Part shown: piece after piece, positions 4,396 to 51,619 of the stretch
Numbering within the stretch: position 1 is the stretch's first letter
Layout: each line of letters starts with the position of its first letter
Source: Echinarachnius parma
Taxonomy: Eukaryota; Echinodermata; Echinoidea; Clypeasteroida; Echinarachniidae
DNA: 64,000 nucleotides
Assembly (NCBI GenBank): GCA_037951105.1
Contig: JBAMJV010003026.1
Location: 312,501 to 376,500 of the forward strand
Direction of reading: 5' to 3'
Made by a program: the position numbers and the translations under genes
Notes under the pieces: generated by a model
The model's input: only the letters and a program-made list of their open reading frames with translations
Told to the model about the DNA's origin: nothing
Database searches by the model: none

Positions 4396-4454
4396 AAACA
4401 GTGACAGTATATTTGTATGTAGTAGTAAAAGAAGGGACATACTACTAATATTGA

Positions 4455-5039
4455 ATATAGCGCCATCAACGGCGGCATGTAAGGTTGAAAGTTTCCCAAA
4501 CAGAATACCTCTGTAGACTACAAGAAGTCTTTGGGAGAAGGGTAATTATTGCGCACAATAGCTATCCATGTTTCCTGTTTTAACACACCATAAGTTATTT
4601 CTGTTGAGGATTTTTATCTTTTAAAATGTTTAAACTTATCTTGTTTTAACCGGTGACTGGTTATTACCATCAATCATCTTTTATAATGGTAGTCGATGTG
4701 GTCCTAATTATTTACCATCTCTGTAAAAAAAAAAAAAAAAGGTTAAACACTGGGGCTAAAAGACAAGCATTCCACCAAAACACCAACATATATTCAGGGT
4801 GTTCCCTCTCACGTGTTGTTCCTACTAATTTGTACTTGGTGTTCAATAGTGATGTATTTTGTTTCCATATGTCATAACAAAATGTACTCCATGACATCAC
4901 ACCAGACTTTCAATTCTGATAAGCATAAGCAAAGTGATGACGTAATATCAATGAATGGAGTCCGAGTAATATTTAATTTGTTGGTGGTGAAGAGGTTAAC
5001 CAGATCAGAATTGTAATGTAAGCCTATAGTGTAGCAAAC
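4455..5039. other. AT-rich spacer
   Basis: No gene, RNA or repeat family is recognised. A run of 16 A lies at 4725-4740. Confidence 0.4.
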
Positions 5040-5135: not shown

Positions 5136-5147
5136 GACAAAAGTTGC

Positions 5148-5540
5148 TAACCCTAACCCTAACCCTAACCCTAACCCTAACCCTAACCCTAACCCTAACC
5201 CTAACCCTAACCCTAACCCTAACCCTAACCCTAACCCTAACCCTAACCCTAACCCTAACCCTAACCCTAACCCTAACCCTAACCCTAACCCTAACCCTAA
5301 CCCTAACCCTAACCCTAACCCTAACCCTAACCCTAACCCTAACCCTAACCCTAACCCTAACCCTAACCCTAACCCTAACCCTAACCCTAACCCTAACCCT
5401 AACCCTAACCCTAACCCTAACCCTAACCCTAACCCTAACCCTAACCCTAACCCTAACCCTAACCCTAACCCTAACCCTAACCCTAACCCCTAACCCCTAA
5501 CCCTAACCCCTAACCCCTAACCCCTAAACCCTAACCCTAG
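5148..5540 (-). repeat. Interstitial telomeric array (CCCTAA)n
   Basis: About 57 perfect CCCTAA units run from 5148 to about 5488, followed by degenerate CCCCTAA units to 5540. TTAGGG is the telomere repeat of vertebrates, echinoderms and many other metazoans. Its orientation is that of a left chromosome end, with the adjoining satellite on the chromosome side. Here it sits inside the sequence with 5 kb of other DNA on its outer side. Confidence 0.95.
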
Positions 5541-5699
5541 ATTTTGTAATCACCCCATCCAGCTTGAAGGATTTCCACTCCAGAATGAGAGTTAAAACAA
5601 CATTAACTCTGCATTAGGAGTGGATTCCACTCCAAACGAAGTGGTCACTAATATGGCTCCCTAAGGAGTGGACAAAAGAGTGGATTTCCACTCCAATAC
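5541..5699. repeat. Cluster of GGAGTGGAWTCCACTCC palindromes
   Basis: The exact 17-base palindrome GGAGTGGATTCCACTCC is at 5617-5633. Variants or half sites (TTTCCACTCC, GGAGTGG, GAGTGGATTTCCACTCC) occur on both sides within about 120 bases, between the telomeric array and the satellite. Confidence 0.5.
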
Positions 5700-8600: not shown

Positions 8601-11600
8601 TTGCTATGCGGCCGTGAACGCAATCTGACCAAGGACAGCATGTATTGACATTGGTTGAGGGTTTTCTTGGGGTTTTCTTCTAGATGCTCGAGGTTTGAAA
8701 CGTTTATTGTTGGAACTTGATCTACACATGTCATTCATTGATTCCATACCATTTTCGGATTCAGGGGAAAGCAATTAAGATGAGAAATTAAGGTTACAAT
8801 ACTAATAATATGTTCATGTTCTGAAAAGGCGCAAAATTTGATATATCTAGGTGCCCTTTAAGTTCAAGTCATTGATAGCACTAATTAGTGGTAAAGATTA
8901 AGTAAGACTAAATAGTTATTGAAGAAAACAATCTTTGCGATCATTATACCTCTCAAACAGTTCATAAGGGCTAATTATGACCATTCTGTTTAAAGGGAAG
9001 GTATAAGCGGTATACATTGCTATGCGGCCGTGAACGCAATCTGACCAAGGACAGCATGTATTGACATTGGTTGAGGGTTTTCTTGGGGTTTTCTTCTAGA
9101 TGCTCGAGGTTTGAAACGTTTATTGTTGGAACTTGATCTACACATGTCATTCATTGATTCCATACCATTTTCGGATTCAGGGGAAAGCAATTAAGATGAG
9201 AAATTAAGGTTACAATACTAATAATATTTTCATGTTCTGAAAAGGCGCAAAATTTGATATATCAAGGTGCCCTTTAAGTTCAAGTCATTGATAGCACTAA
9301 TTAGTGGTAAAGATTAAGTAAGACTAAATAGTTATTGAAGAAAACAATCTTTGCGATCATTATACCTCTCAAACAGTTCATAAGGGCTAATTATGACCAT
9401 TCTGTTCAAAGGGAAGTTATTAGCGGTATACATTGATATGAGGCCGAAAAAACAATTTGCCCATGACAGGATGTATTGACATTGGTTTAGGGATTTCTCG
9501 GGGTTTTCTTCTAGATGCTCGGGGTTTAAAACTTTTATTGTTGGAACTTAATCTAGACATGTCATTCTTTCATTCCATACCATTTTCGGATTCAGGGGAA
9601 AGCATTTTAGATGAGAAATTATGCATCCAAATCCTAACAATATTTTCATGTTCTAAAAAAGCGCAAACATTTATATTTCGAGATTCCCTTTAAGTTCATG
9701 TCATTAATAGCTTTATTTATTGCTATAGATCAAGTAAGACTAAATATTTTTGTAAGAAAACAATCTTTGCGATCAATATACCTCTCAGACATTTCGTAAT
9801 TGCTAATTATGACCATTCTGTATAATGGGAAGGTATAAGCGGTATACATTGCTATTATGCGGCCGAGAACTCAATTTGACTAAAACAGCATGTATTGACA
9901 TTGGTTTAGGGTTTTCTCGGGGTTTTCTTTTAGATTCTCGGGGTTTGAAACTATTATTGTTTGAACTTAATCTACACATGTCATTCATTGATTCCATACC
10001 GTTTTCGGATTCAGGGGAAAGCAATTTAGATGAGAAATTAACCATTACAATACTAATAATAATTTCATGTTCTAAAAAAGCGCAAAATTTGATATATCTA
10101 GGTGCCCTTTAAGTTCAAGTCATTAATAGCACTAATTAGTGGTAAAGATTAAGTAAGACTAAATAGTTATTGAAGAAAATAATCTTTGCGATCATTATAC
10201 CTCTCAAACAGTTCATAATTGCTAATTATGACCATTCTGTTTAAAGGGAAGGTATAAGCGGTATACATTGCTATGCGGCCGTGAACGCAATCTGACCAAG
10301 GACAGCATGTATTGACATCGGTTGAGGGTTTTCTCGGGGTTTTCTTCTAGATGCTCGAGGTTTGAAACGTTTATTGTTGGAACTTGATCTACATATGTCA
10401 TTCATTGATTCCATACCATTTTCGGATTCAGGGGAAAGCAATTAAGATGAGAAATTAAGGTTACAATACTAATAATATTTTCATGATCTGAAAAGGCGCA
10501 AAATTTGATATATCTAGGTGCCCTTTAAGTTCAAGTCATTGATAGCACTAATTAGTGGTAAAGATTAAGTAAGACTAAATAGTTATTGAAGAAAACAATC
10601 TTTGCGATCATTTATACCTCTCAAACAGTTCATAAGGGCTAATTACGACCATTCTGTTCAAAGGGAATGTATTAGCAGTAATATACATTGCTATGCGGCC
10701 GAAAAACCAATTTGCCTATGACAGGATGTATTGACATTGGTTTAGGGTTTTCTCGGGGTTTTCTTCTAGATGCTCCGGGTTTGAAACTTTTATTGTTGGA
10801 ACTTGATTTACACATGTCATTCATTGATTCCATACCATTTTCAGATTCAGGGGAAAGCATTTTAGATGAGAAATTATGCATCCAAATCCTAACAATATCT
10901 TCATGTTCTAAAAAAGCGCAAACATTTATATTTCGAGATTCCCTTTAAGTTCATGTCATTAATAGCTTTATTTAGTGCTAGAGAATAAGTAAGACTAAAT
11001 AGTTTTGTAAGAAAACAATATTTGCGATCATTATACCTCTCAAAAAGTTCATAAGGGCGAATTATGACCATTCTGTATAATGGGAAGGTATAAGCGGTAT
11101 ACATTGCTATTATGCGGCCGAGAACTCAATTTGACTAAAACAGCATGTATTGACATTGGTTTAGGGTTTTCTCGGGGTTTTCTTCTAGATGCTCGGGGTT
11201 TGAAACTGTTATTGTTGGAACTTGATCTACACATGTCATTCATTGATTCCATACCATTTTCAGATTCAGGGGAAAGCATTTTAGATGAGAAATTAAGCAT
11301 TACAATACTAATAATATTTTCATGTTCTGATAAAACGGAAAATTTGATATATCTAGGTTCCCTTTAAGTTCATGTCATTAATAGCACTAATTAGTGTTAA
11401 ATATTAAGTAAGACTAAATAGTTATTGAAGGAAACCAATCATTGCGATCATTATACTTCTCAAACAGTTCATAAGGGCTAATAATTATGACCATTCTGTT
11501 TAAAGGGAAGGTATTAGCGGTAATATACATTGCTATGCGGCCGAGAACGCAATTTGCCTATGACAGCATATATTGACATTGATTTAGGGTTTTCTCGGAG

Positions 11601-12621
11601 TTTTCTTCTAGATGCTCGGGGTTTGAAACTTTTATTGTTGGAACTTGATTTACACATGTCATTCATTGATTCCATACCATTTTCGGATTCAGGGGAAAGC
11701 AATTTAGATGAGAAATTATGCATCCAAATCAGAACAATATTTTCATGTTCCGAAAAAGCGCAAACGTTTATATTTCGAGATTCCCTTTAAGTTCATGTCA
11801 TTAATAGCTTTATTTATTGCTAGAGATCAAGTAAGACTAAATAATTTTGTAAGAAAACAATCTTTGCGATCATTATACCTCTCAGACATTTCGTTATTGC
11901 TAATTATGACCATTCTGTATAATGGGAAGGTATAAGCCGTATACATTGCTATTATGCGGCCGAGAACTCAATTTGCCTAAAACAGCATGTATTGACATTG
12001 GTTTAGGGTTTTCTCGGGGTTTTCTTCTAGATGCTCGGGGTTTGAAACTTTTATTGTTTGAACTTGAACTACACATGTCATTCATTGATTCCATACCGTT
12101 TTCGGATTAAGGGGAAAGCAATTTAGATGAGAAATTAACCATTACAATACTCATAATAATTTCATGTTCTGAAAAAGCGCAACATTTGATATATCTAGGT
12201 GCCCTTTAAGTTCAAGTCATTAATAGCATTAATTAGTGCTAGAAATTAAGTAAGACTAAATAGTTATTGAAGAGAACAATCTTTTCGATCATTATACCTC
12301 TCAGACATTTCGTAATTGCTAATTATGACCATTCTGTATAAAGGGAAGGTATAAGCGGTATACATTGCTATTATGCCGCCGAGAACTCAATTTGCCTAAA
12401 ACATGTATTGACATTGGTTTAGGGTTTTCTCGGGGTTTTCTTCTAGATGCTCGGGGTTTGAAACTTTTATTGTTGGAACTTGATATACATATATCATTCT
12501 TTGATTCCATACCATTTTCGGCTTGAGGAGAAAGCAATTTAGATAAGAAATTAAGCATTACAATACTGATAATTTCTGCATGTCTCGAAAAAGCGCAAAA
12601 TTTGATATATCTAGGATCCCT
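5700..12621 (+). repeat. Satellite array: 17 tandem monomers of 415-423 bp
   Basis: Aligning the landmark TTTAGGGTTTTCTC gives unit positions 5735, 6151, 6566, 6983, 7400, 7816, 8239, 8655, 9071, 9486, 9905, 10322, 10741, 11160, 11583, 12002 and 12418. Monomers differ by point changes and small indels. Variants recur five monomers apart (6151 with 8239, 6566 with 8655, 7400 with 9486), and 8655 and 9071 are near-twins. Roughly 80-codon open frames exist on both strands of most monomers but are broken in others; they are treated as fortuitous. The array lies directly beside the telomeric repeat, as subtelomeric satellites do. Confidence 0.93.
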
Positions 12622-13098
12622 TTAAAGGGGTAGTTTAGTTTTGGTAAGGCTGAACTTTAGTAGCCAAAACCTGCACAGTAACATTATACACTAATAGTTA
12701 GAACTCCACCATGCTCGACAGGTATACAAAATTACAAACGACTAAGTAAAAAGCCTGTTATCATTCAAAAAGAGACATGTGATGTTTTATTGATATAATG
12801 ATTAAATAGCGAGATCATCAACAACTATTTAAAAAACGCTTTTGAACATTTTTGAAAAAGTGCAAGCATTTTTTTATTTTTTTCTAAAATTCATCTAATT
12901 ATTTGGGCCCCAAATAATTATAAGATCAGATATATTTATTGATATTTCAGCCGTTTCTGGGTCGATTTTGACCAAATAAAGTTTATTCTGCCATTAAAAT
13001 TGCATGTTCTCTCAAATTCGACACTCAGTTTTTCATTACCTCACAAAAGAATTGTGTTGTGCAGCGCCCTGTCTACCAAAACTAAACTACCCCTTTAA
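12622..13098 (-). mobile_element. Family-1 TTAA MITE, complete, inserted in the satellite
   Basis: TTAA (12622-12625) is followed by AGGGGTAGTTTAGTTTTGGTA; the other end is the inverted complement, closing in CTACCCCT plus TTAA (13095-13098). It interrupts the satellite motif CCCTTTAAGTTCATGTC at its TTAA, which is present on both sides. Other monomers give the uninterrupted site. No ORF is present, so it is non-autonomous. The TTAA duplication and TTAAAGGGG start fit the TTAAAGGRR ends of T2/Kolobok MITEs. Confidence 0.88.
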
Positions 13099-23849: not shown

Positions 23850-26633
23850 TTAAATGTTTAATTGTCCCCTGATTCTACGAAGCTTGTGGTCAAATGACTT
23901 TAGTGTCCGTGTAGGTATGTTATTTTGAAGACATAACTTCGTGTAGTATTTATAACGAACTGAAATTGGACCTTGACTTTCTTCGATGGACTGCTCCAGA
24001 AGGTCAATTTCTCTAGTTGACCAGGGACGATTGAAATTAGCAGGTAAGTGTCTGCTTTCCATTCTGACCACATTTTGCTCGTCATCGTCTTCAGTGTTTC
24101 CATCAATTGGGGTGATATCTTCCTCCAAAGGTTCTGTCACTTGTACCCGTTGTGGCTGCTGCCTTTTGGCAGTCGGCATAGGTGGGGGTCTAGGAACTTT
24201 GTAAGGGATCGTCTCGTGCAACCTTTGTACTTTTAAGCGGTTTATTCCCGCTATAATACTGTGAGATAATATTTCTAGCTGTTGCAATCTTCGCTGACTA
24301 AGTGGAAGATCAAGCTCTAGATTGGACATCCTGTTATAGTCAATATAGACTCCCAGTTGTACCAGTGCAACGCAACTAACAAAAAGGCACACTAACAATA
24401 TCTGATCTGCTTGTAAGTTGCATCCATCCAGTTTTTGGATTACAGGTTCCATCCAAGGCATGCCACATTCCTGAAAGGTTTTCAGGTTTGTGGCGAAGGT
24501 GAGTTTCCTGGTCTCGAGGTTGATTATGACATCACCTACAAGAGAAGCTGCTCTTGCAGCGTGTGACTCTTCACCACCAGGGGCGATAACCTGCCACACT
24601 GACTTCTTGTCCCAATGTGCCTTTGAGTGTCCTGATTGGTCCGTAAATCTCAGTGAAGGGAAATGTGTGATCTTATGGACAAGGAGGCCGGCTCGAACTA
24701 CATCCGCCACACATCGACCCTTTTGAAGAACCATTTCTAGTGCCCTGCCGTATGTCATGGGGTACGCAAATCTTTTTTTCTCGGACAATTCAATGACCAG
24801 CTGGTCAAGGGAAATGCTTCCAGAACATCTGTAGGATGGTGGCAGATTTGTTCGCTGAAACCCTTCAACGTTTACAATATCGTGATCATGTAGATCCTTT
24901 AGCAATATTCTAATTAGTGCTGAACCTGTAACAGAGTTACTTGCGTCAAGGGTATCAGCGAACGGAAATAACCGTTTGATCCGCTGCTGCTGGACTGTAG
25001 ACTTTGTCCAGTGATGGAGAGGAGGTGGAGAATTTGGCAAAGAAGCGGCATTCGCGGGTTCGATGCCAAGTATGCCCCTTCTAGATGTCAAACTTCTGTG
25101 ATCGTGCACGGCTCCGGGACCAAGATTTGTTGCCAAGATGTTATCAGTCGACTGTGTTGGTCGACCCCATAGCATCTTTTCTAAGCAGAGCTCCATTTGG
25201 TAAGCTTTCCAAGTTGATATGTAGCCTCCCATGTGTTGGTGATCATCACAGAGTTGCTTCAACTCTGTGATAGCATACACGAGGATGCTCTGTATGCTCT
25301 GAGTAAATGCCACCATTGTACCCGGAGCGTGATCTCCTAGTCTGCCGTTATAAAACGGCACAAACATAGGATGACGCTCACACATCAGTTGGAGTGCACC
25401 TTCGTTGAAAAGATCAGATGATCGTATCAACTCAGGTATCTGATCTTGAGCTAGTTTGGTAACTACTTCTAGCCTGCAAGGGATATCTCGTATGAGCTTA
25501 GATGCATTCTCCTCCATCATTGTAATGTAATTGGAAGCCCTAGCTTTCATGGCCCGAGTTGTATTCCAATGGAGAAGCTGACATGAGGCAATCAGACCGG
25601 ACACGGGATGAGGGTATAGCGTGGACGTACGGCTATGTGGGGTGTCGGCATACATCTGAATGAATGTTACTTGAGTAGGATGTCTGGCCACTCTCCTTAG
25701 CTCTCCAGATACATCGATCCTTCTCCCATCAAGATTAGACTGATAATTGCAAGCCTCGTACAATGAGAGTGTACTGTATAACGTACCACGCGTGTTAACA
25801 ATCTCCTGAATGCCCTGTCGTGACCATAGTAGGACTGTGTTGTAGTTGTTGGCAGACATGTTAACAGCATGATGAACAGATGCACACTTGGTTAATTCTG
25901 GCACAAATACTTCGCCTAAGGCAAGCGGTGTGGTTTGTTTTTGGCCAAATTGAGACGCCACTATCAAGAATCGAGTACCGGTTGGCGTCGGTGTCGTTGC
26001 AATAGCATGATCAAGGCAGCCCAATATGAAGGACTGATCTTGGGGCAAAACATTGAAATTTGAAAGATCGTGAAGACTATTTTTCTGAACACTAGGTCGG
26101 GCGTTATCTTCATGAGACAGAGACATGAGCGTAGTACTAACTTTCTCCCCTATAACGGTTAGAAGAGCCTGTGTTGCAGACTTAGCTTGTACTGCACTTG
26201 ATAAATCATGTGCACCCGTAGATCCATCAGGGACCAGGCACAAAGATACTCGGTATCCCATGGTATAACACAAATGAATGCCATGGCAGTTTTGCAAGGA
26301 CTTTAAACCGTTCCCGGTAAATGTGGACAGATCAAAGTGCTTCTTAGCAATGTGGTAGCATGGTTGAATATTTATTTTCTTCGAGTTAAGCTTAAGATAA
26401 AATACAGGAGCAGCAATCCCTGAAAGACTGTGTAATTCTACAACGACACCATCAATGTCATAATCAAAATCAATCAGTGCAGATTGTTCAAGAAGCGTGG
26501 CATTTGTGGATCTTACGTTTAAATGCTCGTCTTCATTTGACAAGAATCCTTCCATGTCTATTGCAGAGTTGATATCATGAAGAAGCTCCGCAGTGTTGTA
26601 CCGAGCTGTTTCAATAAGACTGTCTCTTTCCAT
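23850..26633 (-). CDS. 927-aa orphan protein with SANT/Myb-like C-terminus
   Basis: This is the longest ORF of the window and it is not recognised as any known family. The ATG context is AATCATGG, and a strong 3' splice acceptor (TTATTTCATTTCAG on the minus strand, around 26637-26650) lies four bases upstream. The gene therefore probably has a 5' non-coding exon and one large coding exon. Visible parts: no signal peptide; a hydrophobic stretch at residues 744-764; a proline-rich linker at about 814-820; an acidic segment at about 837-854; and a final 60-residue domain starting NRPWSTREIDLLEQSIEE and closing PTRTLKSFDHKLRRIRG. The tryptophan, leucine and terminal basic helix resemble a SANT/Myb or homeodomain-like fold, so DNA or chromatin binding is possible (inference). 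There is no RT motif, no obvious DDE triad and no zinc-finger spacing. A single long intact exon surrounded by repeats could be a transposon or virus-derived gene, or a lineage-specific host gene. Confidence 0.8.
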   Translation of the reverse strand: MERDSLIETARYNTAELLHDINSAIDMEGFLSNEDEHLNVRSTNATLLEQSALIDFDYDIDGVVVELHSLSGIAAPVFYLKLNSKKINIQPCYHIAKKHFDLSTFTGNGLKSLQNCHGIHLCYTMGYRVSLCLVPDGSTGAHDLSSAVQAKSATQALLTVIGEKVSTTLMSLSHEDNARPSVQKNSLHDLSNFNVLPQDQSFILGCLDHAIATTPTPTGTRFLIVASQFGQKQTTPLALGEVFVPELTKCASVHHAVNMSANNYNTVLLWSRQGIQEIVNTRGTLYSTLSLYEACNYQSNLDGRRIDVSGELRRVARHPTQVTFIQMYADTPHSRTSTLYPHPVSGLIASCQLLHWNTTRAMKARASNYITMMEENASKLIRDIPCRLEVVTKLAQDQIPELIRSSDLFNEGALQLMCERHPMFVPFYNGRLGDHAPGTMVAFTQSIQSILVYAITELKQLCDDHQHMGGYISTWKAYQMELCLEKMLWGRPTQSTDNILATNLGPGAVHDHRSLTSRRGILGIEPANAASLPNSPPPLHHWTKSTVQQQRIKRLFPFADTLDASNSVTGSALIRILLKDLHDHDIVNVEGFQRTNLPPSYRCSGSISLDQLVIELSEKKRFAYPMTYGRALEMVLQKGRCVADVVRAGLLVHKITHFPSLRFTDQSGHSKAHWDKKSVWQVIAPGGEESHAARAASLVGDVIINLETRKLTFATNLKTFQECGMPWMEPVIQKLDGCNLQADQILLVCLFVSCVALVQLGVYIDYNRMSNLELDLPLSQRRLQQLEILSHSIIAGINRLKVQRLHETIPYKVPRPPPMPTAKRQQPQRVQVTEPLEEDITPIDGNTEDDDEQNVVRMESRHLPANFNRPWSTREIDLLEQSIEESQGPISVRYKYYTKLCLQNNIPTRTLKSFDHKLRRIRGQLNI

Positions 26634-27179
26634 GATTCTGAAATGAAATAAATGCGATAAAGGCTTATAAAGTAACTGAACACAGTGTAACAGGAGTGTA
26701 TATATTATTCCCTAAATCATTGCAAAGGCAGTGGCGTAGCCAGTGATACCACACGAGAGCCACTAAAATGGTTAATTGAAAGCTACAAACATGCAATGCA
26801 AACAGTTCAGAAATAAAAGCATTTTAAGGGGAGCTTGTTAACAACTAACCCTAACCGTAAGTTTAGCTGAAAAGGGTAATATGATGGTAAGCTTGATGCC
26901 TGCGCGCCCCTCCTTCCCCGTAGTATAAATGCATGTACATGTCTACAACTCCTACATTTTGAGCAATATTATGTAATTTTCGCTTAAAATCATGTCATAC
27001 TTAAACAAACTAGTATTAATTGTGCAAAATCAAACTATTATTCTGAAAAATCAGGAGATTTAGAAAAATCAAATTATATTTTGAAAAATGCATGTAATTG
27101 CAGGCGCTCTATATACTACTAATTTCTGGCAGATTCTGATCTACCCAAAACTTAACTATCCCTATTTCCTATCCCTCGT
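26634..27179. other. 5' flank of the orphan gene with a hAT-like terminus
   Basis: The motif CAGTGGCGTAGC at 26729-26740 is the terminus shared by the hAT-like elements at 28741 and 53343; its partner end was not found. A decayed family-1-like stretch (about 26980-27170) ends 'cccaaaacttaactatccc'. Confidence 0.45.
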
Positions 27180-30100
27180 AAATGTGTACACATGGGGGGG
27201 GGGGGGGGGTGTTGCGTGAATACAAGCGGGAATGAGGGAGAGTGAAATGAAGGTAAGGGGTAGGAACTCCAAAACAACAGGTTTAGAAGATCGAGTCTGA
27301 TAATAAAAAGTCCATCTTTATAAATTGGTGGGACGGGGGGGGGGGGGGGGGGGGGAGGAGTACGTACACATCCAATGCCCCCCCCCCCCCCCCCCCCCGT
27401 CCACTGCTACGGGTCTGGTTAGCGATTCAGTCATGTCAATGAAGGATAAGGTGTCACTTACCAATTCGACCACTGACCAATGGGCTGGCTGTGAATGTTA
27501 TGTTGCAGGGATAACTCTGAATACAAATAAAAGGCAAACATTAAGTTATGAATGCAGCTAAAATACATTTTTAACGAGATGTTTAGCATACACATTTATG
27601 TTTGAATCATAATGTTATAGGCCACACATCTTATTAAATGCGAAATAGATCAAGCACATCATGCGCTATATCAATTGTAAAAATACTATAATAATACATT
27701 AAAAAACGTATATATCTGTATTTGAATACGTTTGAACACATGTATAAACAATCGATTTTCTTTGATACACCATGACAAATCAAATGAAAGTGAAAAACAC
27801 AGATAATAAATTATGTACACAGCATTCGAGGTATATGGTTGTGGGAATTTATATTTATTTTGTGAAACAGTCTTTCATGAGGGTATGATCAAGAGTGAAG
27901 AAACGGATTTAAATTCACAAAACAAATCCTAGGAAAATTGATGGCCCAGTGAAGGGGCGGGGTGGGGCAAAGGATTTACTCCCGTATATAGCCTTAATTT
28001 AAGGGCATGTGCCGCTGCGGAGAAGAGGGGATGGGGGGGGGGGGGGGTACATTTTTAAAAAACAGGACCGAAAGCTAATGAAATGTAAGCAATAAAGGGG
28101 GAGGAGGTCCGAAACAATAGGTTTAGAGGATGAATACCGATAAAATGTGGGCACGAGACTGATAGCACGTGTACACAGGACCGACACAAAATGGATCGTT
28201 ATGAATTGGGGGACGGGGGAGGGGCGGAGGAGTAGGGGAACGTACACATCCAATGCCCCGACCCCCGTGATACGAGCGATTCAGTCATGTCAGTGAAGGA
28301 TAAAGTGTCACTCTTACCATTTCCTCACTGACCAATGGGATGGCCTTGAATGTGATGTGGCAGGGATATCTGTGAATAGAAATACAAGCCAAACATACAG
28401 TTATGAAAGCATATACACGTTTATGTTGGAATGATACTGTCATTGGACTACCATCTAATTACATGCTGGGATTGGATCAATCATATAATGCGATCTATAA
28501 ATGGAAATGATTATTATCATAACATATTCTTACAAAACCGTGTATATTTGTATTTTGATATGTCTACATTGAACAAATTAATACAATCCACTTTCTTTGA
28601 TACGCCATGACAAATCACATGAAAATGGAAAACGCAGAGAAAAGAATTGTACACAGCAGTCGAGATGTATGCTATTAGTGGTGATTTTTGAAATGATATA
28701 TATTTATATATACTTTGTTTATTTCATTGTTACTTGTGTTCAGTGGCGTAGCGAGGGTCAAGTGATTGGGGGGGGCACAGCTGCGAGGGAGCGGAGCGAC
28801 CAAGCCCGAGGGCGCGTGGCGCCCGAGGGGGGGAGGGTGTGGGAGGGGGTGTCCCCCCTTCCACGGTAGGGAGCTTTTGCAAATTTTTACTCGAAATAAT
28901 GCAATTTGGTGCATACCTTGGAAGGAAATACTGAATTAAAGAAATCATTTCCCTCATGATAAAGTATACACACACAATCAAACCTACGTGTACACACACA
29001 CCAGACTCAAATACTCTCACGCCGTATGCTTGTCTACATTTATTTGGGGGAGGGTGTGGGAGGGGGTTCACCCCCTCCCAATTTTTTTGAAGTTTTTGAA
29101 ATTGGTGTTTAAAATATCACTGTAGAAGTATGGTCATTATTGTCTTTATCATTGTCTTAATCATGGGTGTTAAAATGGTATATAATAGTGAATCTACTCG
29201 TTACGTATTTTAAAACGGTAATAGCGAGGAAAGATTAAGCCCGTGAGATGGATCCACGTGATCCTGTATACTATAGAGCCATCGATATAGTCTAGGGCAT
29301 TGAGCTCCAATGGAACTAAGCAAAAGTGGAGGGGAGACATTGCGAGGGAGCGAAGCGACCAATTGGGGGAGGGTGTGGGAGGGGGTGTCCCCCTCCCACA
29401 GTAGGGAGCTTTCGTATTTTGGGGCCTGAAATTGTGCGATTTGGTGCACACCTAAGACAGAAATTTCACGTAATATAAAGTATATAAGTATGGAACCAAA
29501 CATACTTAATGACAAAGGAGGGGGACAATCTCCTCCCCTTTCTAATGTGGGGGACATAATATTCCAATTGTATTTGCATTCAGCGCATATGGACCGAATT
29601 TACTAAAAGATATACTATTTCAAATTATTTTATTTTCCTATGATAGTGTGCTATAGACATGATAGATGAGGGTCTAATAAATTTCGTATATATATCAGTA
29701 TTTCAGAATATGCAGATATCGACTCTGGAGAAGATGACTGGTGCTCCTTCAATCATGATCATCAACAATATGCCTAGATTATGCATCATGAATTAATGGA
29801 ACGGGTGCATTTGGAGTGAAGAAATTAGTAAAAGAAGTTTGTCTTTACCTAGACATTTAGGACTACGTAGTGCAGCTATGCGCCTTTATAGCCTGCATGA
29901 AGACGTCAAAATTATCTATAAAAGCGGGGGGCAGATTCAAGATCCTAAAAGGGCCCTTGGTATGATAAACGATTTACCATGCTAGGAAGTTTGTTAGGCC
30001 TATACGCGCTCTATGTCTTCTGAAATGCGGTGAGCGTCGATCCTCGCGCACGGGACTGAAAATTTGCATAAGGCGCTATATTGGAAGGATTCTTCAAACT

Positions 30101-30480
30101 GATATAGGTGCGCTATTGCTAGTACTAGGGAACGACTGTTATGTTCTTGGTTATTATCGTTGATAATGATTATTATCACAAATTAAATAAAACGTGATAA
30201 TAATGAATGATATACATTGTAGACACATTTGGCTTCATGTCGGGTCGTCTTTTTTTTTTTATTATTTTTTTTTTGCCAAACGATTGGGGGGGGGGGGGGC
30301 ACGTGCCCCCCCGTGCCCCCCCGTAGCTACGCCACTGCTTGTGTTATTCTCCTTTCTTCTTTTCCATCTCTCATCTATCTAGTATTCCTCATAACTCCTG
30401 CTTACATGGTACCTTATTATGCGCAAAGAGACCCTAACCAGCTAACGTAGATGTGATATGCGCTATATAAGGGTTAACCC
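27180..30480 (+). repeat. Segmental duplication, copy A
   Basis: 27228-28190 and 28427-30480 match 31843-32840 and 32841-33269 plus 38360-38390 (copy B). Shared runs include 'ggtaaggggtaggaactcc', 'gaaacaataggtttagagg' and 'cagctaacgtagatgtgat'. Copy A keeps about 235 bases (28190-28426) absent from B and contains the hAT-like insertion at 28741. No gene is seen in it; G-run/C-run pairs near 27335-27398 and 28033-28047 are prominent. Confidence 0.85.
28741..30337. mobile_element. hAT-like non-autonomous element with 8-bp target duplication
   Basis: It begins CAGTGGCGTAGC and ends GCTACGCCACTG. CTTGTGTT flanks it on both sides (28733-28740 and 30338-30345). The paralogous copy at 33131-33165 has CTTGTGTT once with no insertion, giving a true empty site. 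An 8-bp duplication and CAGTG/CACTG ends fit the hAT superfamily. The 1597-bp interior has no transposase, but carries two copies of a GC-rich module (28760-28930 and 29330-29470) and a G-run/C-run pair near the right end. Confidence 0.88.
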
Positions 30481-30509
30481 TTGCTACGAAAGTGATAATT
30501 GTATGATGT

Positions 30510-30694
30510 AAATGGCGTAGCGACGGGGGCGTACGGGGGGGGGGCGGGGGTACGTGCTCCCCCCCCCCCCCCCAATAATTTGGAAACAAAATATAAAACA
30601 GAAGGGGACAGTTTTGAAGAAAAAAAGAAATGCATAAGGTGTGCACCCAAATAATGTTGGTGCCCCCAATCTGTCTGACCACGCTACGCCACTG
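30510..30694. mobile_element. Small hAT-like element with TATGATGT target duplication
   Basis: The left end reads AAATGGCGTAGC (eroded from CAGTGGCGTAGC); the right end is GCTACGCCACTG. TATGATGT occurs at 30502-30509 and 30695-30702. The 185-bp inside is a G run, 'acgtgct', a C run and then AAATAATTTGG-like sequence. A second copy with the right terminus lost is at 31405-31575, and a left stub is at 38408-38458. Confidence 0.8.
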
Positions 30695-30793
30695 TATGAT
30701 GTATTGTACAATCTTTCATGTTTAGCCCCACCCCCCTCCATATTTACTCTTATAACAAAACAGATTTTTATTAAAACAGCCACACATGAAATG

Positions 30794-30960
30794 TTAAAGT
30801 GATCCATGTAAAGTGTCTAACTCCAAGAAAATGTCTGTGAGCTTCCTTGTTTCTCTTCTACCGTGTTGGTTAGCTTATGTTAAAAGAAATAAAATAGGGT
30901 TAGATATTTTCAAAATGTCCCTTTAGTATGAAGATAATTATCATAGCTAATAAGAGGATC
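30794..30960 (+). mobile_element. Family-3 TTAA MITE, left part
   Basis: TTAA (30794-30797) then AGTGATCCATGTAAAGTGTC. The body contains 'ctcttctaccgtgttggtta' and 'aaaatagggttagata'. The complete relative is at 57082-57624. A duplicate partial copy is at 31645-31815. Confidence 0.6.
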
Positions 30961-31644
30961 GAAAGCATTGCTCAACGGTTTTGACAAGCGGGACTGAGGG
31001 AGAGTGGAATGAAGGTAAGGGGTAGGAACTCCGTAACAACAGGTTTAGAAGATCGAGTCTGATAACAAAAAGTCCATCTTTATAAATCGGTGGGACCGTG
31101 GGGGGGGGGGGGGGGGGGAGGGAGAGGAGTACGTACACATGCAATGCCCCCCCCCCCCGTCCCCTGCTACAGGTCTGGTGAGCGAGTCAGTCATGTCAAT
31201 GAAGGATAAGGTGTCACTTACCAATTCGACCACTGACCAATGGGCTGGCTGTGAATGTGATGTTGCAGGGATATCTGTGAATAGAAATAAAAGGCAAACA
31301 TAAAGTTATGAATGCAGCAAAAATACATTTTTAACGAGATGTTTAGCATACATATTTATGTTTGATTCATGTTATAGGCCACACTACGAAAGTGATAATT
31401 GTATGATGTAAATGGAGTAGCGACGGGGGGGGGGGGGGGGGGGGGGTAGGTGCATTGCCCCCCCCCCCCCCCAATAATTTGGAAACAAAATAGAATACAG
31501 AAGGGGACATTTTTGAAGAAAAAAATACATAAGGTGTGCACCAAAATAATGTTGGTGCCCCCAATCTGTCCGACCGTATGATGTATTGAACAATCTTTCA
31601 TGTATAGAAACAGTTTTTTTTTTTAAACAGCCACACATAAAATG

Positions 31645-31815
31645 TTAAAGTGATCCATGTAAAGTGTCTAACTCCAAGAAAACGTCTTGGAGCTTCCTCG
31701 TTTCTCTTCTACCGTATTGGTTAGCTTATTTTAAAAGAAGAATAAAATAGGGTTAGATATTTTCAAAATGTCCTTTTAGTATGAAGATAATTATCATAGC
31801 TAATAGAAAGCATTG
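31645..31815 (+). mobile_element. Family-3 TTAA MITE, left part, duplicate
   Basis: This is the same segment as 30794-30960, carried along by the local tandem duplication. It starts TTAA-AGTGATCCATGTAAAG. Confidence 0.6.
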
Positions 31816-31839
31816 CTCAACGGTTTTGACAAGCGGGAC

Positions 31840-31989
31840 TGAGGGAGAGTGGAATGAAGGTAAGGGGTAGGAACTCCGAAACAACAGGTTTAGAAGATCG
31901 AGTCTGATAACAAAAAGTCCATCTTTATAAATTGGTGGGACGGGGGGGGGGGGGGGGGGGGGAGGAGTACGTACACATCCAATGCCCCG

Positions 31990-32022
<33 letters not shown>

Positions 32023-33269
32023 TCCACTGCTACGGGTCTGGTTAGCGAGTCAGTCATGTCAATGAAGGATAAGGTGTCACTTGTCACTTACCAATTCGAC
32101 CACTGACCAATGGGCTGGCTGTGAATGTGATGTTGCAGGGATATCTGTGAATACAAATAAAAGGCAAACATAAAGTTATGAATGTAGCAAAAATACAATT
32201 TTAACGAGATGTTTAGCATACACATTTATGTTTGAATCATAATGTTATAGGCCACACATCTTATTAAATGCGAAATAGATCAAGCACATCATGCGCTATA
32301 TAAATTGTAAGAATACTATAATAATACATTAAAAAACGTATATATTTGAATACGTTTACAGTGAACACATAAATAAACAATCGATTTTCTTTGATACACC
32401 ATGACAAATCAAATGAAAGTGAAAAACACAGATCAACAATAATGTACACAGCATTCGAGGTATATGCTTGTGGGAATTTATATTTACTTTTTGAAACAGT
32501 CTTTGATGAGGTATGATCAAGAGTGAAGAAACGGATTTAAATTGACAAAACAAATCCTAGGAAAATTGATGGTCCAGTGAAGGGGCGGGGTGGCCGGGCA
32601 AAGGATTTACTCCCGTATATAGCCTTAGTTTAAGGGCATGTGCCGCTGCGGAGAAAAGGGGATGGGAGGGGGGGGGGGGGGGGGGGGGGGGTGGGGGTTA
32701 CATTAAAAAAAAAACAGGACCGAAAGCTAATGAAATGTAAGCAATAAAGGGGGGAGGAGGTCCGAAACAATAGGTTTAGAGGATGAATACCGATAAAATG
32801 TGGGCACGAGACTGATAGCACGTGTACACAGGACCGACACATGTTGGAATGATACTGTCATTGGACTACCATCTAATTACATGCTGGGATTGGATCAATC
32901 ATATAATGCGATCTATAAATGGAAATGATTATTATCATAACATATTCTTACAAAACCGTGTATATTTGTATTTTGGTATGTCTACATTGAACAAATGAAT
33001 ACAATCCACTTTCTTTGATACGCCATGACAAATCAAATGAAAATGGAAAACGCAGAGAAAAGAAATGTACACAGCAGTCGAGATGTATGCTAGTGGTGAT
33101 TTTTGAAATGATATATATTTATATATACTTTGTTTATTTCATTGTTACTTGTGTTATTCTCATTTCTTCTTTTCCATCTCTCATCTATCTAGTATTCCCC
33201 ATAACTCCTGCTTACATGGTACCTTATTATGCGCAAAGAGACCCTAACCAGCTAACGTAGATGTGATAT
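31840..33269 (+). repeat. Segmental duplication, copy B
   Basis: It is paralogous to copy A (27228-30458) without the hAT-like insertion, so 33131-33165 keeps the unoccupied CTTGTGTT site. It stops at 33269 where the GACGTC-rich element begins and resumes at 38360. It contains a G run (31933-31952), a C run (31990-32021) and a G run (32673-32691). Confidence 0.85.
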
Positions 33270-33280
33270 CCCTGATAGCA

Positions 33281-35195
33281 GACTGACGTCTTTATGACGT
33301 CTTAATTTGGTCGTAAACTGGTAAACACGTCATATGTCGTACAAACGATCAGAATACGACGTCATTATGACGTATTTTAAAGACCATTTTTGACATGATG
33401 ACTTATGTCGAATAAAAGACGTAAAATTGACGTCATTATAACATCTTTAAACGACCATTTTTCCACTATTTATTTTTGTCGTAGGAAAGACGTAAAAACG
33501 ATGTCTTTATAACGTCGTTCAAAGACCATTTTTAAGAATGTATTATTGTCGTATAGAAGACATGATAACGACGTCTTTATAATGTCGTTTAAAGACCATT
33601 TTTGCCATACAGGTTTATGTCGTATCAATAACGCTATAAAGACGTAAGTTTGACGTCTTTTCAAGACCATTTTTTTGCCATCATTTTTTGTCGTATGGAC
33701 GCCCTTTTTACGACGTTAATGTGACGTATTTCAAAGACCATATTCCAATTGTTTTTTGTCGTATGGAAGGACGTAAAAATTACGTTAATATTACGTCATT
33801 TAAAGATCACTTTTTCAGTATTTATTTTTGTCGTATAGAAGACGTAACAACGACGTCTTTATGATGTCTTTGAAAGACTATTTTGCCATCATTTTTTGTC
33901 GTATGGACGACCACTTTACGACGTCATTTTGAAGTCTTTTCAAGACTATTTTTTTGCCATCATTTTTTGTCGTATGGACGACCTTTTTACTACGTCATTT
34001 TGACGTCTTTCAAAGACCATTTTTTTCACTATTTATTTTGTCATAAAAACGTCTAAAAATTGACGTCTTCATGATGTCTTTTAAAGACTATTTTTGCCAT
34101 TATGGTTTGTGTCGTACGACGACGTTAATACGACGTCATTATGATGTGTTTTCAAGACTAGTTTTTGCCATCATTTATTGTCGTATGGACGACCTTTTTA
34201 CAACGTCATTGTGACGTCTTTCAAAGACCATTTTTTCCAATGCTTTTTCGTCATATTAAAGATGTAAAAACGACGTCATTATCACGTCATTAAAAGATTA
34301 TTTTTAAGTATTTATTTTGTAGTATAAAATACGTTATAACGACGTCTTTATGATGTCTTTGAAAGTCAATTTTTGCAATTAAGGTTTGTGTCCTACGGAC
34401 AACATTATTAAGACGTCATTATGACGTCTTTTCAAGACTATTGTTTGCCATCATTTTTTGTCGTATGGACGACCACTTTACGACGTCATTTTGAAGTCTT
34501 TTCAAGACTAGTTTTTTTGCCATCATTTTTTGTCGTATGGACGAACTTTTTACTACGTCATGTTGACGTCTTTCAAAGACCATTTTTTCACTATTTATTT
34601 TGTCATAAAAAAGTCTTAAAATTGACGTCTTCATGATGTCTTTTAAAGACTATTTTTGCCATTATGGTTAGTGTCGTACGACGACGTTAATATGACGTCA
34701 TTATGATGTGTTTTCAAGACTAGTTTTTGCCATCATTTAATGTCGTATGGACAACCTTTTTACAACGTCATTGTAACGTCTTTCAAAGACCATTTTTCCA
34801 ATGCTTTTTCGTCATATTAAGAATGTAAAAACGACGTCATTATCACGTCATTAAAAGATAATATTTAAGTATATATTTTGTAGTATAAAAGGCTTTATAA
34901 TGACGTCTTTATAATGTCTTTGAAAGGACCATTTTTGCCATTAAGGTTTGTGTCGTACGCACGACAATATTAAGACGTCATTATGACGTCTTTACAAGAC
35001 TAGTTTTTGCCATCATTTTTTGTCGTATGAACGACCTCATTACGTCATTGTGACGTCTTTTTAAAACATTTTTTCCAATTATTTTTTGTCGTATAGACGA
35101 CGTTATTACAACGTGATTATGACGTCTTTCAAAGACATTTAAACAATTATTTTTGGCGTATGGACGACCTTTTTATGACGTCAATAAGACGTCTT
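33281..35195 (+). repeat. About 70-bp tandem repeats of the ACGTC element, with 562-bp higher-order period
   Basis: Landmark GTCGTATGG recurs at 33690, 33759, 33830 (variant), 33899 and 33969, so the period is 69-71 bp. Longer blocks recur at about 562 bp (33897 with 34458; 'ccaatgctttttcgtcatat' at about 34236 and 34798). Each unit holds one to three GACGTC or TGACGT motifs. Confidence 0.85.
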
Positions 35196-36173
35196 TATGT
35201 CGTCTAAATGGCGTAATTTATGGTACAAATTGACGTCTTCAAGACGTCTTCAAGACGCCTTTTCGGAAAAAGATACGTCGTTATCACGTCAAAATATGAC
35301 GTCTATATCACGGTAAACGCGGGTGCAAAATCTTCACTTTTTGACGTGAATTTACGACGTCTTAAAGACGACGTACACAAGGTGGAAATGACGTCAAATC
35401 CAGACGTAAAAAGTACGTCTTATATTGACCAATAAGACGTCTTTATGTCGTCTAAATGGCGTAATTTATGGAACAAATTGACGTCTTAAAGACGTTGTAA
35501 AGACGCCTTTTCGGGGAAAAATACGTCATTATCACGTCAAAATATGACGTCTATATGACGATAAACGCGGGTGCAAAATCTTCACTTTTTGACGTGAATT
35601 TACGACGTCTTAAAGACGACGTACATAAGGTGGAAATGACGTCAAATCCAGACGTAAAAATCACGTCTTATATTGACCAATAAGACGTCTTTATGTCGTC
35701 TAAATGGCGTAATTTATGGTACAAATTGACGTCTTCAAGACGTCGTAAAGACGCCTTTTCGGAAAAAAATACGTCATTTTCATGTCAAAATATGACGTCT
35801 ATATAACGGTAAACGCGGGTGCAAAATCTTCACTTTTTTACGTGAATTTACGACGTCTTAAAGACGACGTACATAAGGTGGAAATGACGTCAAATCCAGA
35901 CGTAAAAATCACGTCTTATATTGACCAATAAGACGTCTTTATGTCGTCTAAATGGCGTAATTTATGGTACAAATTGACGTCTTCAAGACGTCGTAAAGAC
36001 CCCTTTTCGGAAAAAATACGTCATTTTCACGTCAAAATATGACGTCTATATGACGGTAAACGCGGGTGCAAAATCTTCACTTTTTGACGTGAATTTAAGA
36101 CGTCTTTAAGACGACGTGCACGACGAAAAACGACGTAAATTTGACGTCATTTTTACCAGTGTTTGCTATCAGC
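35196..36173 (+). repeat. About 248-bp tandem repeats of the ACGTC element
   Basis: Landmark TGTCGTCTAAATGGCG is at 35199, 35446, 35694 and 35942 (247-248 bp apart). Each unit also contains 'aaacgcgggtgcaaaatctt'. A fifth unit is in the right part at about 38120-38340. The run ends with TTACCAGTGTTTGCTATCAGCG, a near copy of the element terminus. Confidence 0.9.
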
Positions 36174-37895
36174 GATTCATTATTGGCTGTAGGCCATGTT
36201 GTTGGATCATACATAAGCCATATATGGTTTACGTTGGAACTGTGTATGACACTAAATACAATATTTATGTGGGAGTGGTGCATATTTATTAGTGCGTCAA
36301 TTATTTGCTTTCTTCGTGAAAAATATATCAAATCATAACACGCTTTCCTAGATGCAGTTAATCTTAAGCCCGAATTTCCTATCTAGGTATGCACCAGATT
36401 GCACAATTTCAAATTCATAAATGCAAAATCTTTCTTACCGTGGGAGGGGGATACACCCTCCCAAACCCTCCCCCTCCCTCCCTGCCCCAGCCCTCAGGTG
36501 CTTCGCTCCATCGGGACTCATTATTGGCAGTGTGTTGTTGGATCATACATAATGTTGCATAATTATGGTTTATGTTGTGTTGTGTGTGTGTGTTTTGGGG
36601 TACATATTTATTAGTGTGTCAATTATTTGTTTTCTACGTGAAAAATATATTAAAACTTTCTGGTCGATCAAATCATATCACGCTTTCCAAAAAAAAAGCC
36701 GAATTTCCTATCTAGGTATGCATCAGATTGCACAATTTCAAGTCCAAAAATGCAAAAACTCCCTACCGTGGGAGGGGGGACACCCCCCTCCCACACCCTC
36801 CCCCCGCTCAGTCGCTTCGCTCCCTCGCAATGTCTCACTCTCACCTCTGGCTCAAACTTGGCATTCCAGAGTGTGGTTGGGCATGAGCCTCTACACACCA
36901 AAATTGTGAGCCCCCTTGGGGTTTTGCCCCCCCCCCCCCCAATCCAAAACTGCTTCCGGCGCGCCTGCCTCTGACCTAATAAAACAAATATGCAATTTAG
37001 CTGATTATCTGTATAATGCTAATTCTACAACAAATTTTCAATGTTGCCAAGGTAACATTGCTAAATTATCTAAAGAAACCTTTAAGCACATGAGAAAAAA
37101 CAAACAAATATTGGACTGTCTACAACCTATTATCGCCTACAGGAATAATTCATCATCGATTATAAACGATAGTATCAAAGTGGAAATAACCCAATGATGC
37201 CAGGGTGGTAATATTGCTAGATTTCCTAAAGAATCCCTTTAGAACATTAGTAAAAACAAACAAACAAATATTGGACTTATGAACGTCTACAACATAATAG
37301 GATCGCCTACAGGAATAATTCATGATCGATTATAAACGATCGTATCAAAGTGGAAATAACCCAATGATCCCAAGGTGGTAATATTGCTAAATTTTTAAAA
37401 GAAACCTTTTAGAACATGAATAACAAAAGAAAATACAGTAGGACTTATGATTAACGTCTTCAGGTCTAATGGATACAGGATTCATTCATGATCGATTATA
37501 ATCAATCGCATTAGAGTGCAAAGTAAAATTCCAAATTTTATAACTATTTACATTGAAAACATTGTTATTATGATCTTGTTTTTGCAGATATTAAAACTAA
37601 TATAAATACCAACCTGTTTTTAATATTTTCAACATGATTAGCAAATTAATTATTTAGGCATCAACTCTTTGAAATACTAAACAGTCAATACTAACCATTT
37701 AAATCTCACATACTAAGAAGCGGGATATATATACGGAACCTATACGACAACTGATCAGTAATGTGTTAGACGTAGGTTATAGGATAGGTTTAGGATATAG
37801 GATTATGTGTTACATGTTATAAAAGTGTTGACTGTGGAATATACTACAAGACATAACCATCTCAATTTTTTAATTATTAATAATTAATAATTAAT
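36174..37895. repeat. Non-ACGTC interior block with two tandem duplications
   Basis: 36174-36400 is repeated at 36517-36750 ('ttggatcatacataa', 'gaatttcctatctaggtatg'). Each copy ends in the GC-rich module also found at 28.8, 52.6 and 53.4 kb. 37040-37515 holds three units of about 165-170 bp around GATCGATTATAAACGAT. 37516-37895 is AT-rich and ends with TAATTAATAATTAATAATTA. No gene is seen. Confidence 0.6.
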
Positions 37896-38359
37896 AATGT
37901 AAAAATCGCTTCAAAATATGACGTCAATACGACGTCTTTTCGTCATAAAAAGACGTCGTTAGCACGTCAAAATATGACGTCTATATGTCGTGAAACGCGG
38001 GTGCAAAATCTTCATTTTTTGACGTGAATTTATGACGTCTTTAAGACGACGTACACGACTTGAAAATCACGTCAAATCAATACGTAAAAATCACGTCTTA
38101 TATTGACCAATAAGACGTCTTTATGTCGTCTTAATAACGTAATTAATGGTACAAATTGACGACTTAAAGACGTCATAAAGACGCCTTTTCGGAAAAAAAT
38201 ACGTCAATATCACGTCAAAATATGACGTCGATATCACGGTAAACGCGGGTGCAAAATCTTCACTTTTTGACGTTAATTTACGACGTCGTTAAGACGACGT
38301 ACCCGACGTAAAATGACGTAAATTTGACGTAATTTTTACCAGTGTCTGCTATCAGGGAT

Positions 38360-38462
38360 GCGCTATATAAGGGTTAACCCTTGCTACGAAAGTGATAATT
38401 GTATGATGTAAATAGCGTAGCGACGGGGGGCGTACGGGGGGGGGGGGGGGGGGGGCGGGGCC
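38360..38462 (+). repeat. Copy B resumed after the ACGTC element
   Basis: 'gcgctatataagggttaacc' and 'gataattgtatgatgtaaat' match 30460-30515. A hAT-like left stub follows (AAATAGCGTAGC), running into a long G run (38438-38454). Confidence 0.85.
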
Positions 38463-47094: not shown

Positions 47095-48270
47095 TGAATT
47101 GAATTGAATTGAATTGAAAAGAGTTTATTCATCAAATAAACTCCCTTAGGGGCTAACCACTCTCTCGGACCCACCTCCAGTTAAAACTCCTATGGAGTGT
47201 TTTGGAGGAATAAACTACCAAGTACCAAGTACCCAAGTACCAAGTAGTTGGCAGCCAAAGGCTGAATTGTACATTTTTTACAAAGTGCAAAGATTAACAT
47301 ACATATTAAAAGTTATAAAGTTTAAAAGGCGATAAGAAATATGCAAACAGCAAAATACACAATTATACATGTATAAGAAAAAAATGATCATACAAAGTTG
47401 AACTATATATTGTTTAAAATACGAACAAGGTAAGGAAGAGCACTATTTTGAAATCTTAAAGTTTTGCATTTAAAAGTGTCATATTTATTCGATTTTCTAA
47501 AATTGTATCTATTTTCTCTTTTAACTGGTAACCAATCATTAAAAACAGGGTGTTTTTCTAAAGATATTACAAACTGTTCACAAAGTTGTTTTCTTCTTGC
47601 TTCCAATGTAATCAAATTGCACAATGAAAGAGCATTAACATATGTTATATAATCACCTCCCAATATTATTCTAAGGACTCTCTTTTGAATCCGTTCGAAA
47701 TTTAATATTTGCTCTTGAGTAATATTTCCATTAAAAACCGGGACACAATAATCAAGTACTGGTCTTATGTATCCCATGTATATAATTAAAAGATCATTAC
47801 GAGGAAAATCAAATGATTTCAATCTACGAAGCATATACAATTTCCTATTACACCTTATGATTGTATCTTTAATATGTAAGTCCCATTTGAGATTACTTTG
47901 TACAATGACCCCAATAATTTTAGCAGATTCCACTGTATCTAATTCAACATTCCCAATGAGTAAATTTTCAAAAACTGGTGGTCGTTTCATAAAAGTAATA
48001 ACCATCGCATGACATTTGGCTGCATTAAGTTTCATATTATTTACACTAGTCCAATGTTGAAAGTTATTGAGAGATTCTTGCATTCTTGAAACTTGAGTAC
48101 ATTTTCTACTATCAACAAGTGTAAGATCATCGACATACTTATAATATGATATACTTTCATCTTTACAAGCATCGTTTATCATTATTACAAAAAGTACAGG
48201 GCCTAGTTTAGTTCCTTGGGGAACACCAGTATGAATCAATTGTGAGTCAGAAATGTTACCTCATTGTTAT
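47095..48270 (-). mobile_element. 5'-truncated non-LTR retrotransposon (CR1/Rex1-like LINE)
   Basis: On the minus strand the order is: RT fragment (48260-47403), a 3' UTR of about 300 bases, and a tail of TTCAA units (seen on + as TTGAATTGAATTGAATTGAA at 47095-47116). The 5' end is cut next to a TTAA MITE at 48303. Truncation at the 5' side and a simple-repeat tail are normal for target-primed reverse transcription. Confidence 0.88.
47403..48260 (-). pseudogene. Reverse transcriptase, C-terminal half (palm, thumb and tail)
   Basis: The readable frame begins just after a stop at about 48261-48263 and runs intact to 47403. It holds GVPQGTKLGPVLF (RT motif 4 region), the catalytic YVDD at residues 35-38 counted from 48239, the NNMKLNAAKC motif, a GVIVQSNLKWDLHI motif and the RPVLDYCVPVF/IQKRVLRII connection typical of CR1, Rex1 and Jockey-group LINEs. 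The endonuclease domain and the first RT motifs are missing, so it cannot be autonomous. There is no internal stop, which indicates a young insertion. Confidence 0.9.
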
Positions 48271-50625: not shown

Positions 50626-51233
50626 TTCAATGCCTTTATTCTTCATTGTTCACACAAATATCTAAATAACAACTCATGACTGTACGAGGGGGTCTCACAT
50701 AGAGGGATGAATTGTGAGGGTCTACTAACGGGTAAGATAACCATGAGCGCCAATAAGGGTGATGAGCGATGATGAACAGTCAGTTTAAGATAGGGCTTGG
50801 GTGAACAATGGAAATGGCTTGGATGAAAGACACATCGGTTTATTGACATTTAAAGGAACGTAATTGTTTACATTTACAAACACAATAAATAGCACCGTAC
50901 TTTCATGCGTTTTTCGCAAGGAAGACTACTCTGAAATAATCATCAGAACATCAATTTCTTTGTCCAAAACTCTCTTTTTTGAGATTAGGTTATCCTAGAA
51001 TGTTTTGTTCTGCACAGCCACTTTCCAGCGTGTGCAAGTTACGCTATCTTTCCGCTCATTCATCAAATTTGTTTACTCTAGGCGGACGACGTTACCAAGA
51101 AGGGGGGGGGGGGGGGGGGTCCTGACTTTAAAACTATGACTTGTATACTATGTTCCTTTTTTAGTTCAAGTGAATTGCTCCCAGCAAGTATTTATACTTT
51201 TACTCATTCCCATGAAACGCCCGCCATTCTAGA

Positions 51234-51306
51234 GACTTCGTGGCTCGATGGTTTGAGCACTGGTCTAGCAATCCGGAGGTCTCTGGTTCGATCCCCGGCG
51301 AAGCCT
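51234..51306 (+). tRNA. tRNA-Ala(AGC)-like locus, possibly a pseudogene or SINE head
   Basis: The 73 bases fit the cloverleaf with canonical spacing: acceptor GACTTCG/CGAAGCC (6 of 7 pairs), T8-G9, D stem GCTC/GAGC (perfect), anticodon arm CTGGT-CTAGCAA-TCCGG with one T-T mismatch and AGC at 34-36, 5-nt variable loop, T stem TCTGG/CCCGG with one mismatch and the loop TTCGATC (B box GGTTCGATCC). Seven T at 51308-51314 form a Pol III terminator. The mismatches in three stems and a non-typical Ala acceptor (no G3-T70) argue against a working tRNA-Ala. Confidence 0.6.
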
Positions 51307-51619
51307 ATTTTTTTCATCAAAACAAAATGTTATTATTCATCACAACATAAAAATGTTCTTTCTTACATGCAATTTTACAGCATAGCTTGCATTTAGTTCT
51401 ACATCGACCATTCTCCATAGGTATAATACACAGGAACCATTATCGGCAGTTAGGAAGAGGCATGCGTTACAGATTATCGTTGATTTCTCACCAAATAACC
51501 TGAAATAGTTCATTAATTACACCCTTTCCGTTCCTCATAAGTTTCTAAACATGTTCATAGGTCTTATGATTTTTTTATTTTTATTGTCATGCCATAGATT
51601 TAAAAACTAATAGCTCTGG

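Follow-up and report, generated by a model that had tools for sequence, protein, structure and literature searches.

The stretch of DNA analysed here, referred to as the window, comprises 64,000 nucleotides of the echinoid Echinarachnius parma (GenBank assembly GCA_037951105.1, contig JBAMJV010003026.1, positions 312,501 to 376,500 of the forward strand) and carries at 33270–38357 a transposable element of 5.1 kb whose arms consist of ACGTC-rich tandem repeats. This 5.1-kb form is a composite, in which an element built of ACGTC arrays is fused to the right-hand portion of an older relative from the same family, and it has spread recently. Its layout in window coordinates is as follows:

33268–33269, no strand: left target duplication, AT
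33270–33283, plus strand: left end CCCTGATAGCAGAC, exact, then the conserved left tip TGACGTCTTTA, which is common to four solo copies
33335–35181, plus strand: 70-bp array with a higher-order repeat of 562 bp (8 units)
35182–36121, plus strand: 248-bp array, 3.8 copies at 95%
36161–36174, minus strand: internal right end, CGCTGATAGCAAAC in the window copy (2 mismatches), then AT
36175–36967, plus strand: first part of the middle, holding an interspersed repeat present elsewhere in the window; no open reading frame (ORF) above 118 amino acids
36968–37917, plus strand: second part of the middle, present also within the older family members L198, L208, and L210
37918–38357, plus strand: right arm, made of the 248-bp repeat (about 1.8 units) and terminating in the right end
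38344–38357, minus strand: right end CCCTGATAGCAGAC, exact, followed inwards by ACTGGTAAAAAT
38358–38359, no strand: right target duplication, AT
30338–30550, plus strand, outside the element: uninterrupted paralogous target site, from alignment to the joined flanks

Both 14-bp termini and the AT adjoining each of them had been noticed in an earlier, sequence-only reading of the window, and both observations hold for this copy. When up to three mismatches are allowed, CCCTGATAGCAGAC has seven matches in the window, compared with a shuffle mean of 2.3, and none of 100 shuffles reached seven. The uninterrupted site claimed upstream is also genuine, as 209 of its 216 aligned positions agree with the joined flanks (33148–33269 plus 38358–38451), and the occupied site is longer by two bases, AT, where the flanks meet. 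The uninterrupted site is among several kilobases of direct duplications (27222–33155, 84–98% identical) that lie upstream of the element. The third, internal right end had been overlooked, and the description of the whole body as array applies to the arms only, the region between the internal right end and the right arm (1,743 bp) being non-array and holding only three motifs. The notion of a satellite mobilised as a transposon is retained for one mobile, largely satellite-like element and amended by its composite build with a 1.7-kb non-array middle.

The termini were searched in a genome of 1,200,326,526 bases and 14,790 contigs, in which the window is C3025:312501–376500. CCCTGATAGCAGAC occurs there 792 times exactly (399 forward, 393 reverse; reversed control, 0), which disposes of the possibility that no other copy shares these ends. 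A sample of 35 copies was assembled from the window copy and 34 copies with both exact ends 1.5–9 kb apart. The ACGTC-poor middle was matched in 34 of the 35, so the assumption that it is host DNA peculiar to the window copy was dropped; in the 33 copies besides the window, the best single alignment is 90.5–98.3% identical, some alignments being partial or broken by insertions. A recognisable internal right end is present in 31 copies, all of which have T at the position where the selected outer ends have C, the C in the 35 outer right ends being a product of the exact-end selection and not a finding. In L191, L193, and L198, the middle sequence is present and the internal end was not recognised, while L178 (2.9 kb), without the middle and with an outer-type right end, looks like a deletion between arrays. 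In 24 complete copies, the middle diverges from its consensus by only 0.69% outside CpG sites and by 1.28% at CpG sites, and the composite has therefore spread recently. Array length varies widely among the copies, from 6 to 36 anchors for the 70-bp unit and from 3 to 10 for the 248-bp unit.

Four solo copies (302, 749, 288, and 470 bp) have matching 2-bp duplications, and the outer right ends of three of them carry the same T as the internal right ends; the idea that a fixed GTTTGC had rendered the internal right end dead was withdrawn on this account. Among the 35 copies, the longest stop-to-stop frame is 221 amino acids, in agreement with the earlier statement that no transposase is recognisable. 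Inverted ends, a target duplication, many copies, no transposase, and a tandem array are thus found together, as in a non-autonomous DNA transposon with an internal satellite. The longest main-type copies, L172 and L185, were considered as autonomous forms and rejected, their extra kilobase being absent from the other copies and appearing by eye to be an unrelated inverted-repeat element and LINE-like (long interspersed nuclear element) DNA. In L172, the extra segment (about 1.1 kb, approximately bases 3480–4640 in family orientation) has inverted-repeat ends and, judged by eye, is a different gene-less element nested in a family copy. L205, with a coding-like frame of 117 amino acids, was likewise set aside, having no Pfam match and no right end within 7.6 kb. 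Fifteen ends are followed by C or G, and the one sampled (601 bases) is a diverged right tip.

A 2-bp target duplication flanks 30 of the 35 copies, or 34 of 39 when the solo copies are included, compared with a mean of 6.9 and a maximum of 16 in 10,000 sets of shuffled flanks. The 34 duplications are of ten kinds: TA 13, AT 6, TT 3, AC 2, AA 2, AG 2, CA 2, GA 2, GC 1, and CT 1. The AT duplication first proposed is consequently right in its length and wrong in its sequence, AT being that of the window copy and a minority in the family. A further solo-like copy, L204, stands outside this count, its flanks (CA/AT) being mismatched.

The nested tandem repeats of about 70, 562, and 248 bp named in the sequence-only reading are real, the first being marked by 24 anchors spaced 68–72 bp. 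ACGTC or GACGT occurs 145 times in 33270–36174, compared with 14.7 ± 3.9 in 200 dinucleotide shuffles (maximum 26), an approximately tenfold excess. A motif in nearly every 10–20 bases was an overstatement, as the 70-bp array has on average a core every 38 bp and the 248-bp array a core every 22 bp. The motif abounds not only in both arrays but also at the tips and in the short solo copies. The observed/expected CpG ratio is 2.2–2.8 in the arms versus 0.73–0.74 in the remaining window, and it averages 2.1 across the leftmost 2 kb of the 35 copies versus 0.77 in the flanks of 34 copies; the excess could reflect youth or absence of methylation. The commonest spacing between adjacent cores is 11 bp (17 of 49, 11 of 44, and 4 of 20 spacings in three blocks of homologous, not independent, units), and autocorrelation is highest at lag 11 whether computed for the 70-bp consensus or for the 248-bp or 562-bp unit. 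Sites paired on the same side of the helix would account for such a spacing, and an 11-bp founder repeat would do so equally well.

Comparison of the two right arms bears on the origin of the composite. The outer right arm is 88% identical to 35739–36176, and the homology ends after the terminus and its AT. Their terminal units are 91% alike and have end-specific sequence in common, whereas the left block's internal 248-bp units show 94–96% identity to one another and 85–86% to their counterpart inside the right arm. Because of the 12% difference between the two arms together with the common end-specific sequence, the two right ends probably derive from two copies of one family. In L198, L208, and L210, the second part of the middle comes after a left array and non-coding DNA of another kind, and in L204 an inner right end runs straight into sequence from inside an L210-type element (525 bases at 93%), while the left flank of L204 matches none of L198, L208, L210, and L213. 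Two different joins of an inner right end to an older interior were thus seen.

The explanation that accounts best for these observations, and which we consider probable, is a non-autonomous DNA transposon family that is mobilised in trans, became composite by nesting, and carries its arrays as binding sites. A transposase supplied in trans would act on ends of the type CCCTGATAGCA..ACTGGTAAAA and leave 2-bp target duplications with a mild preference for T and A, as cut-and-paste (DDE) enzymes do. The complete smaller element (33270–36174) would have come into an older, longer family member, after which the inner left end and the right end of the older element would have been used so that both moved as a unit, and one such composite would then have amplified recently to many copies. 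The ACGTC arrays near the ends would most likely offer many binding sites, often placed one DNA turn (11 bp) apart, to the transposase or to an accessory protein, much as the subterminal repeats of other transposons do, and array length would change by unequal exchange.

Several results weigh against this explanation. No transposase is encoded in any of the copies analysed, and the two halves of an outer element around a nested inner one were seen at no locus. L208 and L210 have a common left flank and may represent one duplicated insertion. The 35 copies were selected by their exact ends from the matches listed, on the low-numbered contigs C25 to C1020, and are not a random sample. Five of the 39 sites are without a 2-bp duplication, L174, L178, L198, and L201 having none and L176 having 3 bp, and at five sites, mostly within simple repeats, the match extends to 4 bp, which leaves the length of the duplication ambiguous there. 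Finally, the ACGTC cores are not especially conserved between neighbouring units, because CpG positions differ as much as or more than others: in the 562-bp order, 38 of 144 CpG positions differ versus 172 of 904 other positions (somewhat more), and in the 248-bp array, 6 of 134 versus 29 of 610 (about equal).

This last result bears on the role of the arrays, for which the strongest competitor is a satellite that expanded passively from an 11-bp founder repeat and is simply carried along by the ends. The lag-11 periodicity of both unit types and the wide variation of unit number among copies also speak for passive arrays. However, the tips at either end are also ACGTC-rich, and solo copies of only 288–749 bp have retained this composition, although the 70-bp and 248-bp units otherwise differ. 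For the arrays alone, the passive alternative falls a little short of an even chance, and a binding role is considered somewhat more likely than not.

As to the class of the enzyme, the motor may be an Academ transposon of the AcademX type, of which the present family would be a gene-less derivative. Academ elements with an XPG-family nuclease exist. On contig C488 of the same genome (G000:C488), a left end of the family and a 70-bp array are followed by non-coding DNA (74.9% identical to L198 in an alignment that includes the array) and then by an intact XPG/ASTE1-like ORF of 707 amino acids with the domains XPG_N (E = 4.6e-7) and XPG_I_2 (E = 2.5e-5). The second half of this ORF has 23 matches at about 18 places in the genome, most of the listed ones in open frames. 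Some XPG/ASTE1-like genes could belong to transposons, or the family may be ordinary host genes. However, neither a transposase nor a right end was seen at C488, no frame longer than 55 amino acids lies in the 701 bases past the gene, and 151-base probes at the matching offset of two sister genes revealed no array. AcademX, which has been paired with a nuclease, also leaves duplications of 3–4 bp (PMC10045372), in contrast to the 2 bp found here at 34 of 39 sites, with 3 bp at one. The link to an XPG nuclease, seen at this one locus, is a lead rather than a finding, and an AcademX motor is considered unlikely.

Less probable again is an undescribed superfamily or deeply diverged branch, characterised by CCCTGATAGCA ends, non-specific 2-bp duplications, end-proximal ACGTC arrays serving as multi-site enhancers, perhaps an ASTE1/XPG-type partner, and nesting with use of inner-left and outer-right ends.

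A gene-less ISL2EU element, as suggested from the window copy alone, would share with the family an animal host, 2-bp duplications, and the AT found in that copy. The description of ISL2EU gives an AT duplication at the target A|AT|T and ends that are usually GG (PMC4482050). Ten kinds of dinucleotide, with AT in only 6 of 34 duplications, argue against this kinship, as do the CCC ends; membership is very improbable. Autonomous relatives of ISL2EU have a THAP/DDE transposase and a YqaJ gene; neither gene was found in the 35 copies, whose frames do not exceed 221 amino acids, and no autonomous partner was found. The rolling-circle route of Helitron-like elements, which would insert between A and T, leave no duplication, and form the composite by read-through to a second terminator, is hardly more than a formal alternative. 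Taken by itself, the window site permits a reading as TCCC..GGGA inserted between A and T. A CTRR end is a criterion for Helitrons; no such end is present, and terminal inverted repeats stand at the very ends of the family. Relatives of Helitrons often carry satellites (PMC12628747), but the other copies have true 2-bp duplications of ten kinds, and it was mainly these, at 34 of 39 sites, that led to rejection of this route. Tc1/mariner was excluded with TA in only 13 of 34 duplications, and Kolobok/KolobokP membership was excluded by 2-bp duplications and CCC..GGG ends in place of the TTAA duplications and RR..YY ends of that superfamily (PMC9587614).

Resemblances to described systems extend beyond these classes. 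The foldback transposon Tetris of Drosophila virilis has long foldback arms and ends unlike those of the family, and is set apart by this description rather than by sequence. Tetris gave building blocks of a satellite and resembles the family as a DNA transposon contributing to a satellite (PMC4079207). KolobokP, which belongs to a TTAA superfamily and encodes a transposase and a His-Me nuclease, has a composite-like terminal repeat with its own inverted ends recurring across an internal region (PMC9587614), whereas the present family has no genes and an incomplete right repeat. Closest in organisation are miDNA4 and Xstir of Xenopus, miniature inverted-repeat transposable elements (MITEs) with internal satellite arrays, miDNA4 being a Tc1/mariner element. 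They share with the family terminal repeats, absence of genes, a variable internal array, and a proposed role as a satellite source (PMC12628747); unlike them, the family is about 5 kb long and composite, and two types of array nearly fill its arms. Gene-less transposons with internal satellites are therefore already known from that source, and what is new here is the composite build, the size of the arrays, and the non-specific 2-bp duplication.

The family was not found in the literature searched, Repbase being outside that search: pieces of the end sequence retrieved no transposon paper by title among those listed, and the single paper retrieved for ACGTC combined with transposons concerns a bacterial MITE. 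In viral_contigs, no stretch matched any of three exact patterns taken from the tips or units. A gapped pattern gave 40 matches in viral_contigs and at least 119 in genome_contigs, which were taken as chance; none of the 159 listed has an array, and they hold at most 11 motifs in 600 bases, compared with 44 in the window.

The window contains several other features. A frame of 953 amino acids on the minus strand (23850–26711) has no Pfam match and seven homologues, including ones in Lytechinus pictus (51%) and Danio rerio (37%), and its patchy spread suggests a mobile gene. The Lytechinus match and a gene family of the same genome, whose nearest named relatives are sea-urchin proteins with 43–45% identity, mark the window as animal DNA. 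At 5147–12625, a telomere-like (CTAACC)64 block adjoins a 7-kb array of a 416-bp unit. A reverse-transcriptase fragment (PF00078) lies on the minus strand at 47403–48260, and a tRNA-Ala(AGC) gene on the plus strand at 51233–51307.

The family presents a young, numerous, and well-preserved satellite travelling as a transposon, with short solo elements, joins of inner to older elements, and an amplified composite side by side, so that a single genome allows tests of how transposons and satellites interconvert. Should the transposase bind the arrays, these would represent subterminal repeats taken to an extreme, and if the partner is a 2-bp-duplicating transposon with an XPG nuclease, the family would extend or split a known superfamily.

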